Source: Bacteroidota bacterium (GTDB lineage: Bacteria > Bacteroidota > Bacteroidia > Flavobacteriales > Flavobacteriaceae). From it: 64,000 bases of DNA. Positions 13,060 through 59,466 of this stretch are shown piece after piece; the first letter of the stretch is position 1, and every line of letters begins with the position of its first letter. The translations under genes were made by a program, and so were the position numbers. Under the pieces are notes generated by a model. The model ran no database searches. It saw only the letters and a program-made list of their open reading frames with translations, and was not told the DNA's origin. Where the stretch lies: NCBI GenBank assembly GCA_947447375.1, contig CANFJB010000008.1:1-64000 (forward strand), in the 5' to 3' direction.

Positions 13060-13067
13060 TACATTTG
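13060..13067 (+). promoter_or_regulatory. Candidate -7 element (TACATTTG) for rpsU
   Basis: TACATTTG fits TAnnTTTG and lies 29 bases before the rpsU ATG, leaving room for the Shine-Dalgarno in the leader. No TTG is found 19 bases upstream. Confidence 0.5.
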
Positions 13068-13078
13068 CACCCTTAACG

Positions 13079-13099
13079 AGAGGAGGTGTCTATATTATG
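13079..13099 (+). promoter_or_regulatory. Unusually strong Shine-Dalgarno of rpsU
   Basis: The leader reads GAGAGGAGGTG with AGGAGGTG at 13081-13088, which can pair over eight bases with the usual CACCUCCU 16S tail. The ATG follows at 13097. Nearly every other gene in the window lacks such a site. In Bacteroidota the anti-Shine-Dalgarno is known to be held by ribosomal proteins including bS21, so a strong site on the bS21 gene itself suggests autoregulation. Confidence 0.9.
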
Positions 13100-13294
13100 T
13101 TAATTATACCAATTAAAGACGGAGAAAATATCGATAGAGCATTAAAGCGCTATAAAAGAAAATTTGATAAAACAGGAACTGTTCGTCAGTTACGTGCACG
13201 TACTGCTTTTATTAAGCCTTCTGTGACCAACAGAATGAAAATCCAAAAAGCGGCTTACATTCAAAATATGAAAGACAATTTGGAAAGTTTATAA
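13097..13294 (+). CDS. rpsU: 30S ribosomal protein bS21
   Basis: The 65-residue basic protein matches bS21: MLIIPIKDGENIDRALKRYKRKFDKTGTVRQLR is the conserved N-terminal half. It joins the platform of the small subunit near the 3' end of 16S rRNA. In Bacteroidota ribosome structures bS21, with bS18 and bS6, covers the anti-Shine-Dalgarno. The gene has its own candidate promoter and the strong Shine-Dalgarno described separately, and it ends before a hairpin terminator, so it is likely a single-gene unit with an internal feedback on translation. The C-terminal half is less basic than in enterobacteria, as is usual in this phylum. Confidence 0.96.
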   Translation: MLIIPIKDGENIDRALKRYKRKFDKTGTVRQLRARTAFIKPSVTNRMKIQKAAYIQNMKDNLESL

Positions 13295-13315
13295 TATAAC
13301 TTTTTAAAAAATACT

Positions 13316-13362
13316 ACCGTTAGTCATTAAAAGTTTTTAACTTTGATGCTAACGGTTTTTTT
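13316..13362 (+). terminator. Terminator after rpsU with a promoter-like box in its loop
   Basis: Arms ACCGTTAG (13316-13323) and CTAACGGT (13349-13356) pair perfectly around a 25-base loop and are followed by a T run reaching the ATG of the next gene at 13363. The loop has a smaller TTAAAAG/TTTTTAA pairing and holds TAACTTTG. Confidence 0.75.
13338..13345 (+). promoter_or_regulatory. Candidate -7 element (TAACTTTG) for the Xer recombinase gene
   Basis: TAACTTTG fits TAnnTTTG. It lies in the loop of the rpsU terminator, so transcription would start in or just after the 3' arm and leave about ten bases of leader before the ATG at 13363. No TTG -33 box is visible. Confidence 0.4.
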
Positions 13363-14259
13363 ATGGAAAATAGTAAGACGGCATTTCGAGATTATCTGCA
13401 ATTAGAAAAAAAGTATTCGCCCCATACGGTAAATGCATATCTAAATGATTTGATTTCATTTGAAACCTATATCAAAACCGAATTTGATTCTGACGACTTA
13501 TTAAATGTAAATTACAGTTTGATTCGAAGCTGGATTGTAACATTAGTTGATGCGCAAATTTCTAACACTTCTGTAAATAGAAAAATCTCGTCTTTAAAAT
13601 CCTATTATAAGTTTCTATTAAAAACGAAGCAAATAGCAATTAGCCCGCTATTAAAACACAAATCTTTAAAAACTCCTAAAACACTTCAAATTCCCTTTTC
13701 GGAAAAAGAACTGGATGAAGTTTTAAATTTCATAACCTATCCAGAAGGGTTTGAGGGCGTTCGGGACAAATTAATAATTGACTTATTTTATTCAACCGGC
13801 ATACGAAGAACAGAATTAATTCATCTTAAAATGCTGAATATCGATCTTTCAAATGCAACTTTGAAGGTTTTAGGGAAAAGAAATAAGGAAAGAATTTTGC
13901 CTTTATTGCCAAATATTGCGAGTCAGATAAAATTGTATTTAACCGAACGAGCTTATTTAGAGAGAATTACCGATAACGACATTTTCTTCCTAACGTTAAA
14001 AGGTGTTAAAATGAACGATTCGTTAGTTTATCGTTTAATAAATTCTTACTTTAGTAATGTTTCCGAGAAGGTAAAAAAGAGTCCACATATTTTACGTCAC
14101 ACTTTTGCAACCCATCTTTTAAACAATGGTGCCGATCTAAATTCTGTAAAAGAATTATTAGGACATTCAAGTTTAGCGTCTACGCAAATATATACTCAAA
14201 GTAGTTTGTTTGAGTTGAAGAAGGTCTACGGTGATTCGCATCCACGAAACAAAAAGTAA
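13363..14259 (+). CDS. Tyrosine site-specific recombinase, XerC/XerD type
   Basis: The 298-residue protein has the two-domain Xer layout: a SAM-like core-binding N-terminal domain (about 1-100) and a catalytic domain (about 105-298). The catalytic residues are in place: R148 in STGIRRTEL, K172 in LGKRNKER, H242 and R245 in HILRHTFATHLL, H268 in LLGHSS and Y277 in QIYTQSS. Xer enzymes resolve chromosome dimers at dif at cell division. Bacteroidota carry several Xer-like proteins, so which of XerC or XerD this is cannot be settled here, and no dif site is seen in the window. Its place between rpsU and hpf argues for a core gene rather than an integrase of a mobile element. Confidence 0.9.
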   Translation: MENSKTAFRDYLQLEKKYSPHTVNAYLNDLISFETYIKTEFDSDDLLNVNYSLIRSWIVTLVDAQISNTSVNRKISSLKSYYKFLLKTKQIAISPLLKHKSLKTPKTLQIPFSEKELDEVLNFITYPEGFEGVRDKLIIDLFYSTGIRRTELIHLKMLNIDLSNATLKVLGKRNKERILPLLPNIASQIKLYLTERAYLERITDNDIFFLTLKGVKMNDSLVYRLINSYFSNVSEKVKKSPHILRHTFATHLLNNGADLNSVKELLGHSSLASTQIYTQSSLFELKKVYGDSHPRNKK

Positions 14260-58977: not shown

Positions 58978-59466
58978 ATGGAAAGCATTAGAATTAGAGA
59001 AATCCAAAAGCAAGACAATGCCCAAATGGCTGCAATTGTGAGAGATGTATTAACTGATTTTGGAGCTCCAAAAGTGGGTACAGCTTATGCAGATCCGTAT
59101 TTAGATACTTTATTTGAAGTTTACGATGTTCCAAGAGCTATCTATTTTGTGGTTGAAAGCAATGGTAAAATTTTAGGAGGTGCAGGAATAATGCAATTGG
59201 AAAATGCTGAAGCGGCCATTTGTGAACTTCAAAAAATGTACTTTCTGCCGGAGATTAGAGGGTTAGGATTTGGAACAAAACTGATGAATCTTTGTCTCGA
59301 AAAAGCCGTAGAATTTGGATTTGAAAGTTGTTACATCGAAACAATGACATACATGGATGCTGCACAAAAATTATATCGAAGATCGGGATTTGAATATTTA
59401 GACCAACAAATAGGCAACACTGGGCACAATTCTTGTGAAGTTTGGATGTTGAAAAAACTCAAGTAG
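58978..59466 (+). CDS. GNAT N-acetyltransferase
   Basis: The start is taken at the ATG at 58978 (MESIRIREIQKQDNAQMAAIV). The frame is open much further upstream, but that part lies inside ribD on the other strand and is a shadow. The 162-residue protein has a GNAT core: ILGGAGIMQLENAEAAICELQKMYFLPEIRGLGFGTKLMNLCLEKA carries the acetyl-CoA loop, followed by ESCYIETMTYMDAAQKLYRRSGFEYL. The substrate is unknown. prmC follows after 2 bases, so the two are co-transcribed and may be divergently regulated with ribD. Confidence 0.88.
   Translation: MESIRIREIQKQDNAQMAAIVRDVLTDFGAPKVGTAYADPYLDTLFEVYDVPRAIYFVVESNGKILGGAGIMQLENAEAAICELQKMYFLPEIRGLGFGTKLMNLCLEKAVEFGFESCYIETMTYMDAAQKLYRRSGFEYLDQQIGNTGHNSCEVWMLKKLK

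Follow-up and report, generated by a model that had tools for sequence, protein, structure and literature searches.

An extended Shine–Dalgarno sequence before rpsU, very probably autoregulatory, in a genome placed among Flavobacterium species

In the window, the whole 64-kb stretch of DNA that was analysed, the gene for ribosomal protein bS21 (rpsU) is preceded by a long sequence able to pair with the 3' end of 16S rRNA. Is this the extended autoregulatory Shine–Dalgarno sequence (SD) known in Flavobacteriales, or an ordinary SD? We consider the former very probable, the feedback itself being argued from Flavobacterium johnsoniae, and trees place the present genome among Flavobacterium species. 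The elements of the locus are as follows.

13060-13067, plus strand: TACATTTG, candidate −7 promoter element, from the sequence; T, A and TTTG mostly kept in 183 loci
13072-13096, plus strand: predicted 25-nt leader CTTAACGAGAGGAGGTGTCTATATT; start site inferred, length by analogy with F. johnsoniae rpsU
13078-13089, plus strand: extended SD, 12 consecutive pairs with ACACCUCCUUUC, G·U at 13080
13089-13096, plus strand: spacer TCTATATT of 8 nt between AGGAGGTG and the ATG, with its first base still in the helix; the same length in 165 of 183 loci
13097-13294, plus strand: rpsU, bS21, 65 aa, Tyr54 present (Pfam Ribosomal_S21, E 5.6e-17)
13316-13362, plus strand: terminator-like hairpin with T run in the gap between rpsU and a xerC-type ORF (fold of 13295-13366, z −4.8)

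The sequence GAGAGGAGGTGT, read directly at 13078-13089, precedes the rpsU ATG at 13097; it includes AGGAGGTG (13081-13088), 8 nt 5' of the start codon, and CTATATT stands directly before the ATG. With ACACCUCCUUUCU, the leader forms 12 consecutive pairs, one of them G·U, at −20.9 kcal/mol. The preliminary description had noted a near-perfect SD 8 bases before the ATG, which is correct and, in view of this helix, slightly understated; the start coordinate given there, 13079, has to be moved to 13078, where the pairing stretch begins. Upstream, TACATTTG fits what we take to be the consensus of the Bacteroidota −7 promoter element, TANNTTTG. The native rpsU leader of F. johnsoniae is given as 25 nt in the part of PMC9976891 used here. 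A leader hairpin masking the SD was considered and rejected: the fold of 13064-13160 is no better than those of shuffled sequences (z −0.2), and of six 25-nt leaders none folds more stably than −0.6 kcal/mol.

A 16S gene was not found in the assembly itself (2.39 Mb, 25 contigs searched), so the tail of this strain was inferred from congeners. Among 24 further genomes of the genus that were searched, 12 had a readable 16S 3' end, and all 12 carry the canonical tail ACACCTCCTTTCT / GGAACACCTCCTTTCTAGAG; in a further survey, GGAACACCTCCTTTCTAGAG was present in every same-genus genome among the matches listed. The 16S 3' end expected of this strain would be GGAACACCTCCTTTCT, and the pairing energy obtained with the congener tail lies below −13 kcal/mol, the limit applied for Bacteroidota rpsU autoregulation by an extended SD.

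The strength of this pairing was compared with that of other starts. Besides rpsU, the 45 candidate starts of the window comprise the mechanical starts of ORFs of at least 100 aa, four antisense ORFs being left out. Second to rpsU, at −9.3 kcal/mol, is a TTG start whose ORF overlaps ribD. This start is doubtful; the Pfam match of the ORF begins at residue 112, and its first ATG pairs at −2.4 kcal/mol. The remaining 43 starts reach −4.5 kcal/mol or weaker. Among the 69 window ORFs of 40–99 aa with an ATG start, rpsU included, rpsU is again first, followed by a start at −8.9 kcal/mol, and secE pairs at −2.4 kcal/mol. A scan of both strands of the window in 25-nt stretches taken every 6 nt (21,326 in all) likewise put the rpsU site first, with the next independent stretch at −16.0 kcal/mol.

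Across the genome, the pattern AGGAGG-N4-12-ATG is not enriched, as it occurs at 77 sites compared with 108 for the reversed control. rpsU is the strongest of the 77 (the second reaches −16.6 kcal/mol), and 75 of the other 76 lie within a stop-free frame of at least 100 codons in some frame, sometimes that of the ATG itself. Moderate SDs may exist at other genomic sites, for example L294 (−13.2 kcal/mol) and L028 (−13.5 kcal/mol). The earlier assertion that rpsU alone carries such a site holds for the 45 and 69 candidate starts of the window, among which, as among the 77 genomic sites, its SD is the strongest. Beyond the window it holds for extreme strength only, among candidate sites of the AGGAGG..ATG form.

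To follow the locus through the genus, we used a pattern blind to the SD (TTTG, a gap and the rpsU start). It matched in 279 of 299 genomes, and in 245 of the 253 with a completeness of 90% or more and a contamination of 5% or less. One of the eight high-quality genomes that did not match has rpsU with an SD. In the other seven (G059, G070, G077, G107, G142, G165 and G266, all at least 90% complete), no rpsU was found; most likely these are assembly gaps, since, according to the part of PMC9976891 used here, an rpsU null could not be made in F. johnsoniae.

The core G[AG][AG][AG]GG[AG]GGTG is present in 200 of 200 loci, composed of 120 same-genus regions (the first distinct genomes among those listed of the 279 matches) and 80 named loci (the best 80 of 557 by closest bS21), two sets that overlap. 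With three loci that have no usable xerC and 15 near-copies dropped, 183 rows remained, window included. At the 11 core positions of the SD these show no pair-breaking change; substitutions are confined to positions 3, 4 and 7, where G replaces the A that faces U. The twelfth pair is kept in 168 rows and lost in 15. Flanking and spacer positions are mostly variable, apart from the constant A at −3 (183/183) and A at −2 (182/183). These two bases, AA at 13075-13076, are as invariant as the SD helix yet unpaired with the 16S tail. Four of the metagenome bins (L031, L032, L051 and L055) are titled Chitinophaga, Rhizobium, Chryseobacterium and Lentimicrobium, respectively; their rpsU regions are of the Flavobacterium type, and to judge from these the titles look wrong.

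How such a leader would act can be outlined from the F. johnsoniae case. In normal ribosomes, the 16S 3' tail would sit in a pocket formed by bS21, bS18 and bS6, and SDs would be ignored. Subunits without bS21 would have a freer tail, available for the 12-bp pairing with the rpsU leader; initiation by these subunits would start bS21 synthesis and refill the pool. This feedback loop is already published (McNutt 2023, PMC9976891), and the present genome is one instance of it. In the parts of that report drawn on here, measurements in F. johnsoniae show autoregulation through ribosomes that lack bS21: mutation or depletion of bS21 raised the output of rpsU'-gfp and of an SD-bearing tuf leader, and did not raise that of SD-less leaders. 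In one assay there, the advantage was masked at 37°C. The tail pocket, and the covariation of the rpsU leader with the alternative anti-SD, are credited to Jha 2021, as told in the parts of PMC9976891 and PMC8710568 used here.

The proteins of this pocket are conserved in the genome. bS21 keeps Tyr54 and is identical to the chain of 7jil, which we take to be the F. johnsoniae ribosome, in 57 of 64 residues; for bS18 and bS6, 94 of 98 and 109 of 113 residues are identical (all counted by eye), and Tyr54 is the contact residue that was checked individually. rpsU is single-copy: PF01165 matches once in the genome. No SD was found in the leaders of rpsF and rpsR in this genome, the rpsR leader reading TAAAATCATCTAAAGCGTAATCATT. 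The earlier proposal that the published model for the phylum fits this window is supported by these data, the testable sequence prerequisites (extended SD, congener tail, single-copy rpsU, Tyr54, bS18 and bS6, SD-less rpsF and rpsR) all being present.

Comparison with known systems leads to the same assignment. As far as the relevant parts of PMC9976891 go, F. johnsoniae has the same extended SD, a pairing energy near −20 kcal/mol, an apparently solitary rpsU transcription unit and Tyr54, and there too no other SD of rpsU strength was found. The present case differs in being another species, with a 2.4-Mb assembly lacking 16S and known here from sequence alone; nothing qualitatively different was seen. 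Chryseobacterium-type systems, described in parts of PMC9976891 and PMC8710568, join an anti-SD of UCUCA to a complementary rpsU leader and so use the same gene and the same pairing logic, whereas this window is of the canonical CCUCC type. In Bacteroidales and some other orders it is rpsR (bS18) that has a strong SD (PMC9976891, in part), and its product is likewise a tail-pocket protein; unlike there, rpsR lacks an SD here.

Two simpler accounts of the leader have to be weighed against autoregulation. An ordinary SD, giving strong rpsU translation with no feedback, would be conserved as well, and stable complexes with rpsU mRNA are seen for wild-type ribosomes as well, according to the part of PMC9976891 used here. 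However, the same source has the output of rpsU'-gfp and of the SD-bearing tuf leader, and not that of SD-less leaders, rising on mutation or depletion of bS21, and it gives SDs as otherwise below chance frequency in F. johnsoniae; we therefore hold an SD without feedback to be improbable. That the purine-rich stretch arose by chance might be argued from the fact that exact AGGAGGTG stands twice in the 64-kb window, at 13081 and at 59175; the copy at 59175 falls within an ORF that encodes an acetyltransferase domain. Against this, the rpsU site is the best of all 21,326 stretches, is found at this position in all 200 loci and has an unbroken core in 183. Conservation already refutes chance, and its probability is negligible. 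An autoregulatory SD is the reading we retain, and rpsU here is one more clean instance of the published specialised-ribosome case in bacteria.

The surroundings of the gene are consistent with solitary transcription of rpsU in that the terminator-like hairpin at 13316-13362 follows it; 3' of rpsU, 176 of 183 loci have a T run and a stem of at least 7. The upstream neighbour encodes an acyl-CoA dehydrogenase, and downstream are genes for a tyrosine recombinase (xerC/D type) and an S30AE-type ribosome factor, tRNAs, tuf, nusG, rplK and rplA. Hairpin and T run stop just short of the first ATG of the xerC-type ORF (13363), so that transcription of this ORF would need either read-through or a start inside the hairpin region.

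Is the rpsU loop common to the order? Leaders were read from families f1–f3, f5, f7–f9 and f11–f16, most of them represented by a single genome, and one f16 locus was unreadable. Strong rpsU SDs were found in f1, f5 and f7 (single f7 genome, −21.4 kcal/mol). Tail and leader could both be read in ten genomes. Eight of these pair at −8.3 kcal/mol (f14) or at −4.5 kcal/mol or weaker (three f11, one each of f3, f8, f12 and f16). In f2, f9, f13, f15 and the remaining f11 genomes, the leaders inspected by eye show no AGGAGG-type SD. With the SD absent or weak in most other families read, the rpsU loop is not universal in the order. The f5 genome G028 has the tail ACATCTCATTTT and a complementary rpsU leader, AAAATGAGATGT (−14.1 kcal/mol), a match that, by its sequence, is the known covariation.

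The anti-SD is altered in f3, f12, f16 and part of f11, and CCTCC is retained in f8, f14 and G498 (f11). Tails of the ATCTC type occur in G355, G377 and G405 (f11) and in nearly all f16 genomes among those listed. Altered tails were seen in L334, L335 and L336 (f11), L337 and L338 (f16), L340 (f12) and L343 (f3); the rpsU leaders of these genomes, read in all but L337, pair with their own tails at −4.5 kcal/mol or weaker. Perhaps the anti-SD decays after the rpsU loop is lost; f8, however, has no rpsU SD and a canonical tail.

Within the genus, the SD helix shows a pattern in its G·U pairs. Leaders were classed by a single G·U at SD position 3 (A) or 7 (B), by none (P) or by both (D). Classes A, B, P and D number 79, 30, 9 and 2 among the 120 regions and 122, 46, 12 and 2 among the 183 rows, which include one further leader with its wobble at position 4. 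One G·U per helix is the norm, its place having switched repeatedly between two positions, and double-wobble leaders are rare (two). A first tree was dropped, as the upstream DNA seemed not to be homologous in all rows (one end branch had length 10); on the codon tree of xerC and hpf used instead, the wobble classes need at least 23 changes.

The coupling of positions 3 and 7 survives tree correction. Twice the log-likelihood rises by 71.5 (182 rows) when the two positions are modelled as dependent rather than independent, with high rates out of the double-wobble form, and allowing direct double changes brought no improvement. The observed one-wobble share of 0.92 was reached in none of 1000 simulations under independence (mean 0.54, largest 0.91). 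Where independent pairs on supported branches differ at position 3, the opposite change occurs at position 7 in a mean of 7.3 of 13 and a change in the same sense never (sign test, median p 0.016, range 0.004–0.06); two other trees gave 9.9 of 15 (p 0.002) and 7.0 of 11 (p 0.016). Small clades containing both forms place the switch in several leader backgrounds, several such clades having low support, and in one of them the double form stands beside both single forms (L216/L247, L260, L208).

Helix strength finds no support as the cause, as nearest-neighbour energies fail to tell the forms apart: −20.8 kcal/mol without a wobble, −20.9 with one at 3, −19.9 with one at 7 and −20.0 with both. Nor does a wobble seem strictly needed: the fitted model puts the no-wobble form at an equilibrium share of 0.19, which is not rare, and P leaders in 12 of the 183 rows and in 5 of 11 other-genus f1 genomes among those listed show that it is not required. 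Linked leader haplotypes exchanged between species may contribute to the coupling, a live rival because other leader sites are coupled as well. Of 19 other site pairs put to the correlation test, five are strongly coupled (−4/−1, 63.7; −7/SD 7, 52.9; −7/SD 3, 35.4; spacer 14/16, 25.9; −8/−7, 23.3), but SD 3/7 is highest at 69.7 and the other 14 give only 2.5–12.6. We tentatively suggest, while thinking it rather doubtful, that selection holds the SD helix at a set quality: long, with one movable G·U (3, 7, rarely 4) and quick repair of double wobbles, the leader being tuned to tell bS21-less from complete ribosomes. Since energies fail to explain the pattern, the selected property would, if such tuning is true, be kinetic or geometric.

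These additions to the known loop are small. The word 'wobble' is absent from the main texts of PMC9976891, PMC8710568 and PMC10783764, and among the related papers listed, no title or abstract opening disclosed a treatment of the one-wobble pattern. Natural leader variants with no, one or two wobbles could reveal which property of the SD–anti-SD helix the feedback needs. Outside the helix, 13071 (−7), a C/A site probably just beyond the mRNA, changes genus-wide in step with positions 7 and 3 of the SD.
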